NCBI RefSeq assembly: GCF_010731755.1
Contig: NZ_AP022589.1
Location: 3,844,001 to 3,908,000 of the forward strand
Length of the DNA stretch: 64,000 bases
Origin: Mycolicibacter minnesotensis
GTDB taxonomy: Bacteria > Actinomycetota > Actinomycetes > Mycobacteriales > Mycobacteriaceae
Direction: 5' to 3'
In this document: piece after piece, positions 41,016 through 47,815 of the stretch
Layout: each line of letters opens with the position of its first letter
Position numbering within the stretch: the stretch's first letter is position 1
The notes under the pieces: generated by a model
The model's database searches: none
Told to the model about the DNA's origin: nothing
The model's input: only the letters and a program-made list of their open reading frames with translations
Made by a program: the position numbers and the translations under genes

Positions 41016-41552
41016 CTAGTTCGCGGTGGGGTCGGCGGAGGCGGCGAAGACCGCCTGCGCCACACCCGCCACGATCGAGGCGACCTTGAGGGCTTCCAGC
41101 ACCGCTTCGCGGCCGATGCCCGCCTCTCGCACGACCTGCTCGTGGGAGGCGACGCACGCCTGGCAACCGTTGATCGCCGACACCGCGAAACTCCACAACT
41201 CGAAGTTCGCCTTGTCGACGCCCGGGTTGCCGATGATGTTCATCCGCAACCCGGGCCGCAGGTCGTCGTAGTTGCCGTCCAGGAAGTGCCGGCCACGGTA
41301 GAACACGTTGTTCATGCCCATGATCGACGCGGCGCCGAGCGCGGCCTGGTAGGCCTCCGCCGACAGGTTGTCGGCGGCCTCGGCTCCGATCTCAGCCAGT
41401 ACCGTCGCGTTGCGCGTGGCGACGGCGCTGGCCAGCAGACTGCCCCAGAGCTGCTCGTCGTTGAGGACCGTGGTGCGGGCGATCGAACCCAGGTTGAGCT
41501 TGAGGTCCTTGGCGTACTCCGGGATCGCGTTCTTGAGGTTCTCGATACTCAT
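41016..41552 (-). CDS. ahpD: Alkylhydroperoxidase AhpD
   Basis: AhpD is the lipoamide-linked disulfide reductase that re-reduces AhpC in mycobacteria. The 178-residue protein has the CxxC active site [17 protein letters not shown] with Cys130, Cys133 and His137, exactly the numbering of the M. tuberculosis enzyme. [20 protein letters not shown] is the standard N-terminus. It follows ahpC on the same strand after 63 bases, consistent with an ahpC-ahpD operon under OxyR control. Confidence 0.97.
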
Positions 41553-41615
41553 GTGTCGCTGTTCCTCCTCATCCTGGCGCTCGGCATCGCCCGAGCGCGA
41601 CTCATACGACTGCGA

Positions 41616-42197
41616 TCAGAGCGACTCTTTGAGCAGCTCGCCCACGTTCAGGGTCGCCTCGCCCTTCTTCCAGTTGCAGGCACACAGCTCGTCGGACTGC
41701 AGCGCGTCGAGCACCCGCAGCACCTCGTCGACATTGCGGCCCACCGAACCCGCGGTCACTGAGACGAACTGAATCTCGTTGTTGGGGTCGACGATGAAGG
41801 TGGCCCGGTCGGCGACACCGTCAGCGTTGAGCACGCCGGTGTCCCGCACCAGATCGCGGGCCAGGTCCGACAGCATCGGGAACGGCAGGGTCTTGAGGTC
41901 CTCGTGCGTGACGCGCCAGTTGTAGTGCACGAACTCGTTGTCGGTCGAGACGCCGAGAACCTGGGCGTCGCGGTCGGCGAACTCGTCGTTCAACTTGCCG
42001 AATGCCGCGATCTCGGTGGGGCAGATGAAGGTGAAGTCCTTGGGCCAGAAGAACACCACGCGCCACTTGCCGGCGTAGTCGTCGCTGGTGATGGTGGTGA
42101 AGAGCTCATCGGGCCCGTTCACCTTCGACAGGTCGCCCCCGATCAGGGCGGTCACCTTGTAGGCCGGGAACTGGTCGCCGATAGTCAACAGTGCCAT
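41616..42197 (-). CDS. ahpC: Alkyl hydroperoxide reductase AhpC (peroxiredoxin)
   Basis: ATG at 42197, behind AAGGAGTGTC, starts MALLTIGDQFPAY and gives 193 residues; upstream codons of the open frame are in the oxyR-ahpC control region. The peroxidatic cysteine lies in KDFTFICPTEIAAF at about residue 59 and the resolving cysteines in ELCACNWKKGEA at about 172 and 174. It reduces alkyl peroxides and peroxynitrite. It is divergent from oxyR and followed by ahpD. The sequence differs from enteric AhpC in pairing with AhpD, not AhpF. Confidence 0.97.
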   Translation of the reverse strand: MALLTIGDQFPAYKVTALIGGDLSKVNGPDELFTTITSDDYAGKWRVVFFWPKDFTFICPTEIAAFGKLNDEFADRDAQVLGVSTDNEFVHYNWRVTHEDLKTLPFPMLSDLARDLVRDTGVLNADGVADRATFIVDPNNEIQFVSVTAGSVGRNVDEVLRVLDALQSDELCACNWKKGEATLNVGELLKESL

Positions 42198-42252
42198 GAC
42201 ACTCCTTGTGATGTGAGATCTGCTTCGGGGCGCATTCGACGCCCGCACGCTC

Positions 42253-42301
42253 TATCGTGCCTTATCGCAATTAAAAATAAAAGGTGATACTTGGCACTAT
42301 A
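42253..42301. promoter_or_regulatory. OxyR-binding/divergent promoter region of ahpC and oxyR
   Basis: The 113-base ahpC/oxyR gap has inverted arms TATCGTGCCTTATC at 42253-42266 and GATACTTGGCACTATA at 42286-42301 around an AT-rich core (AATTAAAAATAAAA). ATC/GAT half-sites on both sides fit LysR/OxyR operators. The AT content is striking for this genome. It should contain both promoters; assignment of individual boxes is not attempted. Confidence 0.75.
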
Positions 42302-42310
42302 CTTATCGGC

Positions 42311-43243
42311 ATGACCGATGCAAGCTATCAGCCCACGCTCGCGGGGCTGCGGGCATTCGCCGCCGTCGCCGAGAAGCACCACTTCAGCCTGGCCGCTGCC
42401 GGCCTGGGCCTCAGTCAGTCGACTCTGTCGCAGGCATTGTCGTCGTTGGAGTCGGGCCTGGGCGTCCAACTCATCGAGCGCTCGACCAGGCGGGTCTTTC
42501 TGACCGCCGAGGGACAGCACTTGCTTCCCTACGCCCACGCAGTACTCGATGCGGCGGCGCAGTTCTCGGCCGCTTCGGCGGGGGTAGTCGATCCGCTGCA
42601 GGGCGCTATGCGGCTCGGTCTGATCCCGACCGTGGCACCGTACGTGCTGCCCGCCGTGCTGGCCGGCCTGACTTACCAATTGCCGGAGCTGCGCCTGCGG
42701 GTCATCGAAGACCAGACCGACCGCCTGCTCACCGGCCTGCGCGAGGGGGCGGTGGACGCGGCGGTGATGGCGCTGCCCACAGACGCCACCGGGATGACCG
42801 AGATCCCGCTCTACGACGAAGACTTCGTGCTCGCGTTGCCGCAGGGGCACGCCTTGGCCGGCAAACGCCGGGTGTCGCCGACAGCGCTTGCGGACTTGCC
42901 GCTGTTGCTGCTCGACGAGGGGCACTGTCTGCGGGATCAGACGCTGGAGATCTGCCGCAACGCAGGGGTGCGTGCGGAATTGGCCACCACACGCGCGGCG
43001 TCGCTGGCCACCGCGGTCCAGTGCGTCAACGGCGGTTTGGGGGTGACGTTGATCCCGCAGACCGCGGTGGCGGTCGAGGTCGAGCGCAACGGCTTGGCGC
43101 TGGCCCACTTCGCGCCGCCGCAGCCCGGGCGGCGGATCGGTCTGGTATTTCGCACCTCCAGTGGGCGAGAAGAGTCCTATCGAAGACTGGCGGGAATCAT
43201 CGGCAGCGTGATCGCTGCAGGCCACCAGGTCACGCTGCGGTGA
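42311..43243 (+). CDS. oxyR: OxyR, peroxide-sensing LysR-type regulator (intact)
   Basis: ATG at 42311 gives [20 protein letters not shown] and 310 residues. The LysR helix-turn-helix is at 15-60 ([20 protein letters not shown]) and the sensing domain contains [20 protein letters not shown] with Cys206 and Cys215, nine residues apart as in E. coli OxyR (199 and 208). No frameshift or stop is present, unlike the oxyR pseudogene of the M. tuberculosis complex. It is divergent from ahpC, its expected target. Confidence 0.96.
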
Positions 43244-43290: not shown

Positions 43291-44058
43291 GTGATCCTGA
43301 CGATCGAAGACAAGAACCGCGTTCGGACGTGCACGCTCAATCGGCCCGAGTCGCTCAATGCGTTCAACGAAGCGCTCTATGACGCCCTTGCCGAGGCGTT
43401 GCTGGCGGCCGCGGCGGACCCGGAGGTCGCGGTGGTGCTGCTCACCGGCGCGGGGCGCGCATTCAGTGCCGGAACCGATCTCGCCGAGATGCAGGCCATG
43501 GTGACCGACCCGGATTTCGTACCGGGCAAGCATGGCTTCCGGGGCCTGATCACCGCGCTCGGCCAATTCCCCAAGCCGCTGATCTGCGCGGTCAATGGGC
43601 TGGGATTGGGGATCGGCACCACAATCCTGGGCTATGCGGACCTGGCCTTCATGTCATCGACGGCCCGGCTGAAATGCCCCTTCACCAGTCTGGGTGTGGC
43701 GCCCGAAGCCGCGTCGTCCTATCTGCTGCCGCAGTTGATGGGGCGGCAGAACGCGGCCTGGCTGCTGATGTCCTCGGAGTGGATCACCGCCGAGGAGGCG
43801 CTGCGGATGGGCTTGATCTTCGCGGTCTGCGAGCCTGACGAGCTTGACAGCGAAGCCCGGCGTCATGCGGAAGTCCTTGCTTCTCGGCCTATTTCGAGCC
43901 TGATGGCGGTCAAGAGCGCAATGGTCGAGCCGACGCGGGCCGAGACGCTGGCTGCCGTCGAACGGGAGAATGCCTTCTTCGCCGAGCTCTTGGGCGCCCA
44001 GGCCAACGCGGATGCGCTGGCCGAATTCACCGGGCACAGGGGCGGCGGGTCAGTGTGA
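43291..44058 (+). CDS. Enoyl-CoA hydratase/isomerase family protein
   Basis: The 255-residue crotonase-fold protein has TLNRPESLNAFNEALYDAL, the oxyanion-hole segment LLTGAGRAFSAGTDLAEMQ (about 55-70), AVNGLGLGIGTTILGYADLAF and RLKCPFTSLGVAPEAASSYL. The alanine/glycine oxyanion backbone is conserved; the glutamates expected of a true hydratase (two) are not both evident, so isomerase or hydrolase activity is possible. GTG start at 43291. It overlaps the converging bfd gene by nine bases at the 3' ends. Confidence 0.9.
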   Translation: MILTIEDKNRVRTCTLNRPESLNAFNEALYDALAEALLAAAADPEVAVVLLTGAGRAFSAGTDLAEMQAMVTDPDFVPGKHGFRGLITALGQFPKPLICAVNGLGLGIGTTILGYADLAFMSSTARLKCPFTSLGVAPEAASSYLLPQLMGRQNAAWLLMSSEWITAEEALRMGLIFAVCEPDELDSEARRHAEVLASRPISSLMAVKSAMVEPTRAETLAAVERENAFFAELLGAQANADALAEFTGHRGGGSV

Positions 44059-44283
44059 TCCCACCGGGCTGATGTCGAGTGCCAGGCGGTGCAGTGCATC
44101 GCTGTCGACAGTGGGTCTGGCGGCCAGGGTGGCTTCGATGATGTCCCGCACGGTGCAGCGGCACCGGCCACAATCTCCGCCCGCCCCGCACATCGCGGCA
44201 ACCTCTTTCGACGTGCAGGCGCCGGCGGCGACGGCATCGGACACCATCTGGTTGGTGGCTCCGACACACAGGCATACATACAT
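44050..44283 (-). CDS. bfd: Bacterioferritin-associated ferredoxin (Bfd-like)
   Basis: The 77-residue protein carries the Bfd [2Fe-2S] ligand pattern: Cys4 and Cys6 (MYVCLCVGAT) and Cys38 and Cys41 (GDCGRCRC). Additional Cys32 and Cys43 are present. In other bacteria Bfd docks on bacterioferritin and reduces its ferric core to release iron. It is the second gene after an IdeR-boxed unknown gene (10-base gap), and bfrA lies on the other side of that box. This places iron storage and release next to each other. Confidence 0.93.
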   Translation of the reverse strand: MYVCLCVGATNQMVSDAVAAGACTSKEVAAMCGAGGDCGRCRCTVRDIIEATLAARPTVDSDALHRLALDISPVGSH

Positions 44284-44292
44284 GGCCCGCCC

Positions 44293-44988
44293 CTACCGGC
44301 CGTCGCCCGCGGGCGCCATCAGGTCGATAGCGGCGGCGAACTTGCCGACGAAGGGGCGGGGGTAACCGCCGCTGCCGTTGCCCGCCATCCACTCCGCGGC
44401 GGAGTCCGGGTGGTCGTTGAATCGTTGTGCACTTGCCGCGCTGTCGAATTCCAGCAGCGTCATCACCTCATGTCCGTCATCGACTGCCTGATAGACCCAC
44501 ACTTTGCGCACCCCGGCGGCGGCGAACCTGTCGAGCCCGACATGGACCTTGGCCATCAGTTCCGCGGGGTCGGCCACCGTGGCAACCGCACCGACGATCA
44601 CCTCCGTACCGCCCTGCTCGGAGTCGGACTGGGCCAGGTTGATCTTTTCTCGAACCTCACCGGCGAAGATCGCCGGCAGATCGTTGACCCCCGAGCGGTC
44701 GAACCACTCGAAAACGGCGGGGGAGCGAAGCAACTCCTTGACCGAGGCCCGGTGCCGCAGACCGATCGTGACCAAGACCCGGTTGGGCTCTGACTCCGAG
44801 GTGTACAGCACGGCATGGCGGGCGCCCAGACCCCGCAGCGGGGAATGGTCGTGCTCGATCAGCGACCAGGTCCGGTCGACATCGTCGACGCGGTAGTCCA
44901 GCGCCAGCACCAGCGAATGCGGATCATTGCCCTGCGAGAATCCGCCGCCCGAAATGCCGACACGATTGCCAGGCGAAGCGAGTCTCAT
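44293..44988 (-). CDS. Conserved protein with two ferredoxin-like (dimeric alpha/beta barrel) repeats, Rv1874-like
   Basis: The 231-residue protein has no named domain I can assign with certainty. Two halves each look like a ferredoxin-like strand-helix unit: SLVLALDYRVDDVDRTWSL with ELLRSPAVFEWFDRSGV in the first, and EVIVGAVATVADPAELMAKV with LLEFDSAASAQRFNDHPDSA in the second. This suggests a fused dimeric alpha/beta barrel, the fold used by antibiotic-type and heme-degrading monooxygenases. Its ATG lies two bases after an IdeR box, so it should be induced by low iron. Together with bfd it may help release iron from BfrA; this is inference. Confidence 0.75.
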   Translation of the reverse strand: MRLASPGNRVGISGGGFSQGNDPHSLVLALDYRVDDVDRTWSLIEHDHSPLRGLGARHAVLYTSESEPNRVLVTIGLRHRASVKELLRSPAVFEWFDRSGVNDLPAIFAGEVREKINLAQSDSEQGGTEVIVGAVATVADPAELMAKVHVGLDRFAAAGVRKVWVYQAVDDGHEVMTLLEFDSAASAQRFNDHPDSAAEWMAGNGSGGYPRPFVGKFAAAIDLMAPAGDGR

Positions 44989-44989
44989 G

Positions 44990-45008
44990 TTAGTAGAGTC
45001 TAACCTAA
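44990..45008 (-). promoter_or_regulatory. IdeR iron box at the Rv1874-like/bfd promoter
   Basis: On the minus strand TTAGGTTAGACTCTACTAA matches the IdeR consensus TTAGGTTAGGCTAACCTAA at 15 of 19 positions, with a perfect left half. It ends one base before the ATG at 44988. A TAGACT hexamer inside it (44997-45002) is eight bases from the ATG, so transcription may start at the A of the start codon, giving a leaderless mRNA that IdeR blocks. bfrA begins 218 bases away on the other strand. Confidence 0.8.
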
Positions 45009-45225
45009 GTAAAGCGCACCTTCCATGGGTCTGGCAGCGGCCGGCGATCAGGAAATCGCCCGGAGGCCCGAAGGCGGTGCGGCGATTCGACGCGCCGAGA
45101 CCCGGGTAAACATCTCCCCGTAGCCGGTGGCCTGCACTAGATTGAGATTCGGCGCGTCACGGCGATCATCACTGTTCCGCCCGTCGCGGCCGGCATGCGA
45201 GGTTCTTCACACCAGAGGAGAGATC

Positions 45226-45705
45226 ATGCAAGGCGACCCCGAGGTTCTCAAGCTGCTCAACGACCAGCTGACCAGTGAGCTCACCGCGATCAACCAGTAC
45301 TTCCTCCACGCGAAGATGCAGGACAACTGGGGTTTCACCGAGCTGGCCGGGCACACCCGTGAAGAGTCGATGGAGGAGATGCGCCACGCCGAGGCGGTCA
45401 CCGACCGGATTCTCATGCTCGGCGGCCTGCCGAACTACCAGCGGATCGGGTCCCTGCGCATCGGGCAGACCCTGCGCGAGCAGTTCGAGAGCGACCTGGC
45501 GCTGGAGATCGACGTGCTCAACCGATTGCGGCCCGGCATCGTCATGTGCCGGGACAAGCAGGACAGCACCACCGCCAAGATTCTGGAGACCATCCTCGTC
45601 GACGAGGAGTCCCACATCGATCACCTGGAAACCCAACTGGAGCTGATGGACAAGCTCGGCGACGCGCTGTATTCCGCGCAGTGCGTCGCCCGGCCGCCCT
45701 CGTGA
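45226..45705 (+). CDS. bfrA: Bacterioferritin BfrA
   Basis: ATG at 45226 follows AGAGGAGAG; the open frame begins 99 bases earlier without a good site. The 159 residues have the ferroxidase ligands (Glu18, Glu51, His54 and the later EESHIDHLE) and the heme-ligand Met52 in EEMRHAEAVTDRI, typical of heme bacterioferritin. It forms a 24-mer iron store. It is divergent from the IdeR-boxed operon that contains Bfd. In M. tuberculosis bfrA (Rv1876) is activated by IdeR; only one box was found here. Confidence 0.97.
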   Translation: MQGDPEVLKLLNDQLTSELTAINQYFLHAKMQDNWGFTELAGHTREESMEEMRHAEAVTDRILMLGGLPNYQRIGSLRIGQTLREQFESDLALEIDVLNRLRPGIVMCRDKQDSTTAKILETILVDEESHIDHLETQLELMDKLGDALYSAQCVARPPS

Positions 45706-45772: not shown

Positions 45773-47815
45773 ATGACCGAAACGCCGGTCGCCGACGACG
45801 TGCGACCCGCGCCGGTCAGCCCGCACCGCCGCAACCTGATCTTCCTGGCGATTGTCTTCGGCCTACTGATGGCCGCGCTGGACCAGACCATCGTTGCGAC
45901 AGCCCTGCCCACGATCGTGTCGGATCTGGGCAACGCCGGCCATCAGTCCTGGGTCGTCACCAGCTACCTGCTGATGTCGACCATCGCCACGATCCTGGCC
46001 GGCAAACTCGGTGACCTGTTCGGCCGCAAGCGGGTGTTCCAAACCGCGGTGGTGTGCTTCGTCGCCGGCTCGGTGTTGTGCGGCATGGCCACGTCCATGG
46101 GAATGCTGGTTGGGTCCAGGGCCTTGCAAGGTCTCGGCGGTGGCGCGATCACCGTCACCGCCGCCGCACTCATCGGCCAAGTGATCCCCCTGCGGGACCG
46201 AGGCCGCTACCAGGGCATGCTCGGCGCGGTCTTCGGCGTCACCACAGTGATCGGACCGCTGCTGGGTGGTTACGTCACCGATTACCTCACCTGGCGGTGG
46301 GCGTTCTGGATCAATCTGCCGATCTCGGTGGTGGTGTTGGTCGTGGCCGGGGTGGCGATCCCGGCCCTGGCGGGGCACGCCAAACCCGTCATCGACTACG
46401 CCGGGATCGTGTTGATCGGCGCGGGCGCCACCGGATTGACGCTCGCCACCAGCTGGGGTGGCACGCGTTACGCCTGGGGGTCAGCGGTGATTATCGGCCT
46501 GTTCGTCGGCTCGGCAGCCGCACTCGCCGTGTTCGTGTGGGTGGAAAGCCGGGCCGCGGCGCCCATCCTGCCGACCCGGCTGTTCGCCGACCCGGTGTTC
46601 GCCGTGTGCTGCGTCCTGGCGTTCGTCGTGGGCTTCGCGATGCTGGGTGCACTCACCTTCCTTCCCACCTTCATGCAGTACGTCGACGGGGTCTCGGCCA
46701 TCACGTCCGGCCTGCGCACGCTGCCCATGGTGGTGGGCATGCTGGTGACCTCCACCGGCAGCGGCGCCCTGGTCGGACGCACCGGCCGCTACAAGATCTT
46801 CCCGGTGGTCGGTACGGCCCTGATGACGATCGCCTTCGCGTTGATGTCGCAGATGGACGCGGCCACGCCGGCGCTGGTTCAGTCGGTCTACCTGCTCATC
46901 CTGGGCGCCGGGATCGGGCTGTCGATGCAAGTCCTCGTCCTGGTCGTGCAGAACACGTCCAGTTTCGCCGACCTCGGTGTAGCGACATCCGGAGTCACGT
47001 TCTTCCGGACCATCGGCAGCTCGTTCGGTGCCGCCGTATTCGGGTCACTGTTCGTGAACTTCCTGGCCCACCGGCTGGGCCCGGCGCTGCGCAGCGCTGG
47101 GCTGGCCGCCGGTGCGGCCGACTCGCCCGAGGCCGTGCGCCGGTTGTCGCCCCAGCAGGCGGAACCGATCGTGGCGGCCTACGCCGACGCGCTCGGGCAG
47201 GTGTTCCTGTGCGCCGCGCCGGTCGCGCTGCTCGGCTTCGTGCTGGCCCTGTTTCTGCGCGAGGTTCCGCTCAAGGAGTTGCACGACAATGCGGTCGACC
47301 TCGGTGACGGGTTCGGCATGCCCACCACCGCGTCCTCCGACGAGCTGTTGGAGAAGGCGGTCGGTCGACTCCTGCACAACGAGCCCGGGATGCGGCTGCG
47401 TTCCATCGCGCTGCGCCCCGACTGCCAGCTCGACGTCGCGGGTCTGTGGACGGTCCTGCGCATCTACCGCTACACGCAGGTGTTTCGGACCGCGCGGCTC
47501 AGCGACATCGGCACGCGCCTGCGGGTGCCCTACGAAATCCTCGAGCCCACCGTCGATCGGCTGGTGGAACAGGGTTATGCGCTGCGCGACGGCGATCACC
47601 TGGGACTCACCCGCGCGGGTCTGCGTCAGGTCGGGTTCGTGTCGTCGCTGGTACAGGACTGGGTGGTCGACAAGCTGGCCCGGTCGCCCGGCTTCGAGGG
47701 CCGCCCGGATCGGGCCGAGGTCGGGGCCGCGCTGGAGCGGATCGCGCGGCGAGCGTTGATCGATCCCGACGATGCGGGGGAGTCCGCGGAGTTCGCCAGC
47801 ACCGCCCACGGGTGA
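45773..47815 (+). CDS. DHA2-type MFS exporter with C-terminal winged-helix tail (Rv1877-like)
   Basis: ATG at 45773 behind AAGGAAAG is preferred to the GTG two codons upstream. The 680-residue protein has 14 predicted membrane helices to about residue 500 with motif A (KLGDLFGRKRVF), AALDQTIVATALPTIV and motif C region GAVFGVTTVIGPLLGG, an EmrB/QacA-type drug exporter. Residues from about 520 onward form a soluble tail with LWTVLRIYRYTQVFR, DIGTRLRVPYEILEPTVDRL and GYALRDGDHLGLTRAGL, the shape of a winged helix. A cytosolic regulator-like domain fused to a transporter is unusual. Confidence 0.9.
   Translation: MTETPVADDVRPAPVSPHRRNLIFLAIVFGLLMAALDQTIVATALPTIVSDLGNAGHQSWVVTSYLLMSTIATILAGKLGDLFGRKRVFQTAVVCFVAGSVLCGMATSMGMLVGSRALQGLGGGAITVTAAALIGQVIPLRDRGRYQGMLGAVFGVTTVIGPLLGGYVTDYLTWRWAFWINLPISVVVLVVAGVAIPALAGHAKPVIDYAGIVLIGAGATGLTLATSWGGTRYAWGSAVIIGLFVGSAAALAVFVWVESRAAAPILPTRLFADPVFAVCCVLAFVVGFAMLGALTFLPTFMQYVDGVSAITSGLRTLPMVVGMLVTSTGSGALVGRTGRYKIFPVVGTALMTIAFALMSQMDAATPALVQSVYLLILGAGIGLSMQVLVLVVQNTSSFADLGVATSGVTFFRTIGSSFGAAVFGSLFVNFLAHRLGPALRSAGLAAGAADSPEAVRRLSPQQAEPIVAAYADALGQVFLCAAPVALLGFVLALFLREVPLKELHDNAVDLGDGFGMPTTASSDELLEKAVGRLLHNEPGMRLRSIALRPDCQLDVAGLWTVLRIYRYTQVFRTARLSDIGTRLRVPYEILEPTVDRLVEQGYALRDGDHLGLTRAGLRQVGFVSSLVQDWVVDKLARSPGFEGRPDRAEVGAALERIARRALIDPDDAGESAEFASTAHG

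Follow-up and report, generated by a model that had tools for sequence, protein, structure and literature searches.

The stretch of DNA analyzed here, called the window, covers 64 kb of Mycolicibacter minnesotensis (GCF_010731755.1, NZ_AP022589.1, 3,844,001-3,908,000 of the forward strand) and belongs to a genome of 4.22 Mb on a single contig. It contains the bacterioferritin gene bfrA (45226-45705, plus strand, 159 aa) and, divergent from it on the minus strand, two genes that probably form one operon: a gene for a 231-aa ABM-like double-barrel protein (44293-44988), referred to below as the barrel gene, and bfd (44050-44283), coding for a 77-aa [2Fe-2S] protein similar to bacterioferritin-associated ferredoxins. 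A 19-bp IdeR-type box (44990-45008, minus strand) precedes the operon and is separated from bfrA by 217 bp (45009-45225). Gene order and box are conserved among relatives, the barrel gene stays beside bfd at places away from bfrA, and a reversed pair of bfd with a one-domain barrel relative occurs in a genus of another family. The locus can be read as an iron-release divergon with an added barrel gene, in which the barrel protein would be a dedicated partner of the Bfd-type ferredoxin; the chances of this model as a whole are judged to be about even.

The IdeR-type box and the start of the probable operon

An earlier note on this DNA had placed the open reading frames (ORFs) of the barrel gene, bfd and the divergent bfrA. 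All three were confirmed, with PF04324 passed by Bfd and TIGR00754 by BfrA. The note was also right that bfd closely follows the barrel gene, although the gap is 9 bases (44284-44292) and not 10. Its 15/19 IdeR box at the start codon was found as described: read on the minus strand as TTAGGTTAGACTCTACTAA, the box matches TTAGGTTAGSCTAACCTAA at 15 of 19 positions, ends one base ahead of the ATG of the barrel gene, and is the only 19-mer in the 64-kb window that scores above 12/19. Across the genome, TTAGGTTAGSCTAACCTAA with up to three mismatches occurs at five places, compared with none for a backward control; the box, having four mismatches, is not among the five. The motif TWAGGTTAGACTNNNCTAA, common to relatives of the locus, has a single exact match in the genome, which is the box itself. 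Allowing two mismatches adds one further place, and the backward control pattern also yields one.

Loci for comparison were fetched by similarity to the window genes, a sample biased to near relatives, and were counted as distinct when the initial portions of their barrel and Bfd proteins differed. They comprise 94 distinct loci with the order bfrA-barrel-bfd (window included), 29 with bfrA-bfd and no barrel gene, and 23 with barrel-bfd away from bfrA (3 of them fetched via bfd); the remainder are five barrel genes alone, one locus (L028) without bfd, and two with other arrangements. The lack of bfd beside the barrel gene of L028 was not counted as biology, as the record has N near the end of that gene and an assembly flaw is likely.

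The earlier note had made its proposal depend in part on a conserved neighbourhood with bfd or bfrA, and both the neighbourhood and the box are kept in relatives. Within 320 bp upstream of bfrA, the best box of the 94 bfrA-barrel-bfd loci scores 13 in 5, 14 in 66 and 15 in 23; in the loci lacking the barrel gene it scores 14 to 16 (29 of 29). When these 320 bp were shuffled, a score of 14/19 was reached in 3 of 1880 trials and at least 13/19 in 24 of 1880. No box precedes the barrel gene at the places unlinked to bfrA (0 of 23), where the best upstream 19-mer never exceeds 12. Box positions 1, 3, 5, 7, 8, 9, 11, 12, 16, 17 and 18 are invariant across the 94 loci, and the ends of the box, TWAGG on one side and CTAA on the other, are nearly so.

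Mycobacterial -10 elements have the form TANNNT, and the box contains a hexamer of this type, TAGACT, at 44997-45002. In genes repressed by IdeR, the box lies over the -10 element or the start, according to the available portion of PMC10317159. Since a single box with such a hexamer abuts the first ATG of the operon, repression of the operon by IdeR through this box suggests itself naturally. Any effect on bfrA, 217 bp away, is proposed more cautiously. Genes activated by IdeR tend to carry several boxes, and the sites of bfrA and bfrB are further upstream (PMC10317159 and PMC9132128, in the portions available). Two or more boxes scoring at least 14 were found in 20 of the 29 loci without the barrel gene, compared with 7 of the 94 with it. 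The barrel-less loci, such as L149, L151, L200, L201, L204 and others, often carry, upstream of bfrA and bfd, a pair of nearly identical boxes set 24 bp apart. At L003 and L083, a second box-like stretch directly follows the first, and the start codon is shifted downstream.

The ATG one base after the box is present in 16 of the 17 printed loci of the Mycolicibacter type (window included), and the first in-frame ATG, GTG or TTG stands 29 to 37 bases past the box in 40 of the 94 bfrA-barrel-bfd loci. Residues 1-23 of the barrel protein are disordered in the predicted model and poorly constrained. Little third-position bias is seen in residues 2-22, where the codon changes of 15 loci relative to the window number 88, 48 and 93 at positions 1, 2 and 3, compared with 124, 94 and 445 in residues 25-115. 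Because the N-terminus is disordered and weakly constrained, the box-adjacent start codon is not certain. The next in-frame ATG, GTG or TTG of the window ORF is a GTG at residue 27, within the first strand, which makes a leaderless or near-leaderless start at the box-adjacent ATG likely. When scanned for sigma-70 consensus promoters and for terminators, the sequence showed two weak promoter-like sites, which are uninformative, and no terminator.

The double-barrel protein, Bfd and BfrA

The closest named relatives of the 231-aa protein belong to Mycolicibacter species. Its predicted fold is a duplicated alpha+beta structure of two fused ferredoxin-like beta-alpha-beta-beta-alpha-beta units, which falls in the ABM/dimeric alpha-beta barrel class, and its two halves align to each other over 86 columns (hhalign E 2.2e-6). 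Thus, the two ferredoxin-like repeats seen in the earlier note are borne out, and the comparison with dimeric alpha/beta barrels that it advised yields an ABM-like double barrel. The best solved matches are two monooxygenases, 5f9p (anthrone-oxidase-like) and 9kdp (PenE). The predicted model is that of a duplicated ABM-type fold, with anthrone-oxidase-like monooxygenases as its closest counterparts. Its score against Pfam ABM (PF03992) is 15.1 bits, under the gathering cut-off of 23.1, and only 4 of 44 family members match PF03992 at E <=1, the best at E 0.012. Searched by sequence against solved structures, the 231-aa protein had no match; the wider profile A2 returned weak rows only (best E 7e-4, an entry named OT3), and no NCBIfam family was found for the protein. 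The NCBI name of the family, 'fatty-acid--CoA ligase' (P0002, P0019, P0027 and others), may come from a neighbouring ligase gene and is unsupported by Pfam or by the fold.

For the barrel protein, no nucleotide- or flavin-binding family rises above chance; a FAD-binding family is touched by 1 of the 44 members (E 0.18). The idea that the protein is a reductase using flavin or NAD(P)H was given up, since no such family exceeded chance in Pfam, in NCBIfam or among the 44 members. With this result and the fold of ABM-type oxygenases, the role of reductase partner offered in the earlier note appears unlikely.

IsdG and MhuD heme oxygenases use a catalytic Asn-Trp-His. Among 19 diverse members of the wider barrel alignment, not one Asn or His is conserved throughout or almost throughout; H58 and H149 are almost fully conserved in closer relatives, which does not extend to the wider family. 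An alignment of the barrel protein with the MhuD-like protein of the same genome was not significant, and the residues could not be placed. This MhuD-like protein is encoded separately (G000:C1:1319763-1319981, L254) and has a single domain resembling MhuD and heme oxygenases; its best NCBIfam matches, which stay under the cut-off, are to heme-degrading families. The lack of invariant Asn and His and the separate MhuD-like gene lower the probability that the barrel protein is a heme oxygenase of the MhuD/IsdG type, though H58 and H149 are nearly invariant in closer relatives. No known heme signature rises above chance in the barrel protein; a heme-handling role, the other example given in the earlier note, would be a candidate.

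Bfd matches Pfam PF04324 (Fer2_BFD) at 37.7 bits (cut-off 26) and aligns without gaps to the Bfd of structure 4e6k (E 1.9e-10). Its cluster cysteines C4, C6, C38 and C41 occupy the 4e6k positions. It also has Y2 and L5, and L5 is kept in 122 of 123 loci. The single other PF04324 match in the genome lies inside an 861-aa frame. BfrA scores 236 bits against NCBIfam bfr (TIGR00754, cut-off 125.55), has the bacterioferritins 3uof and 2wtl as its nearest solved structures, and keeps M52, L68, P69, Q72 and Q81 in 123 of 123 loci. Met52 is the heme ligand of bacterioferritin (PMC8945002, in part), and the residues of the Pseudomonas and Acinetobacter Bfd-Bfr interface are described in the available part of PMC13136788, with Q81 as in Acinetobacter. 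Since the Bfd and BfrA residues match the described interface, electron flow from Bfd to BfrA is a fair inference.

Distribution and history of the barrel-bfd pair

A sample of the genus, 148 genomes, was searched. The counts that follow rest on the 139 in which BfrA had a strong match; 4 genomes that gave only weak ferritin-like matches and 5 that gave none were set aside. Among the matches listed, the barrel gene faces bfrA in 57 genomes, bfd faces bfrA with no barrel gene between in 78, and neither arrangement occurs in 4. The largest bfrA-to-bfd distance in the arrangement without a listed barrel gene is 573 bases, which is too short for a full barrel gene. At least 69 of these 78 genomes carry a barrel gene elsewhere, and nine genomes lack one, among the matches listed; four of the nine (G458, G460, G472 and G495) have weaker matches. 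The barrel gene adjoins bfd in at least 35 of 57 linked and at least 31 of 93 unlinked cases, counts that are not used as a rate.

A barrel profile found 28 places in the same genus beyond 20 on the bfrA side. Among the 24 of them examined, none is linked to bfrA, and in 20 the barrel gene is immediately followed by bfd. The pair also occurs outside the genus. In genus g72, which belongs to another family (f16), bfd is directly followed by a one-domain barrel relative in all three loci seen (L221-L223; 102 aa in L221), so that the order is reversed. This relative, searched in 374 genomes of the class, matched in 22 same-genus genomes and in 3 others, and no bfd lies within the 3.2 kb fetched around the 3 outside one-domain matches (L225, L247, L248). 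Outside the genus of the window, the barrel-bfd pair was found only in g72. The ORFs near L221 look by eye like aldehyde dehydrogenase, SDR and thiolase genes.

Around six unlinked barrel loci, Pfam assigned 9 of the 10 neighbouring proteins tested. The families are AMP-binding ligase, amidohydrolase, alpha/beta hydrolase, P450 with SDR, nitronate monooxygenase, and acyl-CoA dehydrogenase with TetR; no iron gene was among the ten. In the acyl-CoA dehydrogenase/TetR context (L125, and by eye L126 and L128) bfd is lacking, and it is likewise lacking at L118.

Because the barrel gene stays beside bfd away from bfrA and in g72, and bfrA-bfd often stands without it, the best reading makes the barrel protein a dedicated partner of Bfd. 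The earlier note had the protein working with both Bfd and BfrA. The first half of that proposal is supported by these pairs; a special tie to BfrA is not, as 78 of the 139 genomes have no listed barrel gene between bfrA and bfd and two loci keep only a decayed remnant. In the latter (L142 and L146, genomes G409 and G458), the barrel gene has been reduced to a short stretch with stops, leaving the box before it, bfd after it and bfrA all in place.

Trees were built on samples of the loci, 67 rows for Bfd and 51 for the barrel protein. In the Bfd tree, a branch (89/93) separates the 22 copies that adjoin unlinked barrel genes from the remaining rows. Of the 45 copies on the bfrA side, with or without a barrel gene, 41 cluster together (98/85). 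In the barrel tree, the 22 bfrA-side proteins fall in one clade (100/99), which also holds L050 and L052. Most simply, bfrA-box-bfd and barrel-bfd would be separate pairs that came together at this locus, and some lines may later have lost the barrel gene. Read by lineage, the pairs would meet here in Mycolicibacter and many Mycolicibacterium, and many other members of the genus would keep bfrA-box-bfd at this place and the barrel gene elsewhere. L050 (Mycolicibacter acidiphilus) has both pairs next to each other, bfrA-bfd and then barrel-bfd, each with its own bfd.

Beyond the divergon, an MFS transporter gene follows bfrA (45773-47815, plus strand; PF07690, 160.4 bits; match in 67 of 80 loci), and an enoyl-CoA hydratase-family gene faces bfd (43291-44058, plus strand; PF00378, 151.4 bits; match in 72 of 80 loci). 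Close to the bfrA locus, at 41016-43243, ahpD-like and ahpC-like genes lie with a divergent LysR/OxyR-like regulator; its LysR domains were found by Pfam, and the ahp and OxyR names were given by eye.

Proposed mechanism, alternatives and comparison with known systems

In the favoured model, a single IdeR-type box covers what is probably the promoter and start of the barrel-bfd operon, 217 bp upstream of bfrA. The position of the box suggests that iron-loaded IdeR would bind there and keep the operon off; it may at the same time help bfrA, as reported for M. tuberculosis. When iron becomes scarce, the operon would open, and Bfd and the barrel protein would be made together. Judging from the conserved residues and the work on Pseudomonas, Bfd would dock on BfrA over the heme and pass electrons in, so that Fe2+ is released. 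The barrel protein would be an oxygenase-like or ligand-binding enzyme, with the Bfd-type ferredoxin as dedicated partner and, most simply, as electron donor. Since the fold is of the oxygenase type and Bfd is its most constant partner, a Bfd that also feeds electrons to the barrel protein makes an economical model. A bolder and more doubtful extension is that mycobacteria have a two-component redox class of their own, in which a fused double-barrel ABM-like oxygenase draws electrons from a dedicated Bfd-type [2Fe-2S] ferredoxin and which has spread to several pathways. One copy would have been captured by the IdeR-bfrA iron-release divergon, and a lack of iron would then turn on the release of stored iron along with an oxidation linked to iron or heme. 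If true, Bfd would have a second job beyond bacterioferritin.

Three other explanations bear on different parts of this model. The barrel protein could serve lipid or aromatic metabolism as an oxygenase or lyase that needs no cofactor; bfd would then accompany it because it codes for a general electron carrier, or through the history of the operon, with no direct contact between the proteins. The anthrone-oxidase-like and PenE fold matches agree with this, as do the ligase, amidohydrolase, acyl-CoA dehydrogenase, P450 and SDR genes that adjoin unlinked copies and the existence of barrel genes with no bfd nearby. It is nevertheless rather unlikely, as chance or history alone poorly explains a pair that recurs in several contexts and, reversed, in another family. 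In another view, BfrA or its heme is the direct target of the barrel protein, which would insert, remove or turn over the heme or gate iron release, and Bfd is just a co-regulated neighbour. Pairs that persist without bfrA and without the box are hard to fit to such a role, and so are the 78 of 139 genomes with no barrel match listed between bfrA and bfd, the decay of the barrel gene at L142 and L146 while bfrA-box-bfd stays, the lack of an invariant or nearly invariant Asn or His in the wider alignment, and the separate MhuD-like gene; this view is quite unlikely.

The third alternative concerns the box, which might be a mere promoter and no IdeR site. TAGACT does fit the TANNNT form of a mycobacterial -10, and part of the right half of the box is degenerate. 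A -10 hexamer does not explain why the outer TWAGG and CTAA are nearly invariant in 94 loci despite drift at positions 13-15. Unlinked barrel-bfd operons have no box, and overlap with the -10 or the start is what the available text of PMC10317159 gives for boxes of repressed genes. A promoter without IdeR control is thus very improbable.

The iron-release model with Bfd as partner has evidence to answer as well. The window Bfd scores below the cut-off of the NCBIfam Bfd equivalog (PRK10509; 31.9 versus 75 bits), and residue 2 of Bfd is F and not Y in 74 of the 94 bfrA-barrel-bfd loci. Four Bfd rows from the bfrA side fall nearer the unlinked ones in a tree that is limited by few columns. At 4 of the 24 examined unlinked barrel places, and at L052, no bfd was found in the fetched DNA. 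The third half-repeat of the box is degenerate, with drift at positions 13-15 among the 94 loci, and no cofactor or substrate site could be assigned on the barrel protein. Finally, genes may remain neighbours even when their products are no physical partners, the compared loci are relatives of one another, and the support is computational.

Iron release from mycobacterial stores is little understood, and the part of Bfd in it is called a matter of speculation in the accessible text of PMC5218490. The comparison provides a conserved divergon in non-tuberculous species, in which the parts that tend to stay together are the box, bfd and bfrA. It also singles out the barrel protein family, which has a steady companion in the Bfd-type ferredoxin. 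If direct electron transfer were found, the known role of Bfd would be widened.

In M. tuberculosis, an IdeR-regulated bfd is divergent from bfrA and rises in low iron (PMC5218490, in part, citing Gold 2001), and a BFD small ORF is listed in the accessible part of PMC11133741. The window locus shares the divergent bfd and bfrA and, as predicted from the box, the IdeR control; it differs in the extra barrel gene between box and bfd, in one likely operon, and no such gene appears in the available portion of the PMC5218490 account. With the Bfd-Bfr iron release of Pseudomonas aeruginosa it shares the Bfd cluster cysteines at 4e6k positions, Y2 and L5, and in BfrA M52, L68, P69, Q72 and Q81; it differs in having an IdeR-type box and the barrel gene. 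The fused-domain ABM-type monooxygenases 5f9p (anthrone-oxidase-like) and 9kdp (PenE) differ from the barrel protein, which has 14% identity, lies below the Pfam ABM cut-off and is coupled to a Bfd-type ferredoxin gene. The heme-degrading enzymes IsdG/MhuD, LmHde and HmoB also differ, as the barrel family lacks an invariant Asn or His and the genome has a separate MhuD-like gene. No description of a barrel gene in a bfd operon, or of the barrel-bfd pair, was found among the best-ranked open-licence PMC papers, nor did locus tags of M. smegmatis and M. tuberculosis neighbours lead to any account of the barrel gene. The IdeR-bfd-bfrA module is already known; what is new is the barrel gene in the operon and the pairing of barrel gene and bfd across the genus and g72.

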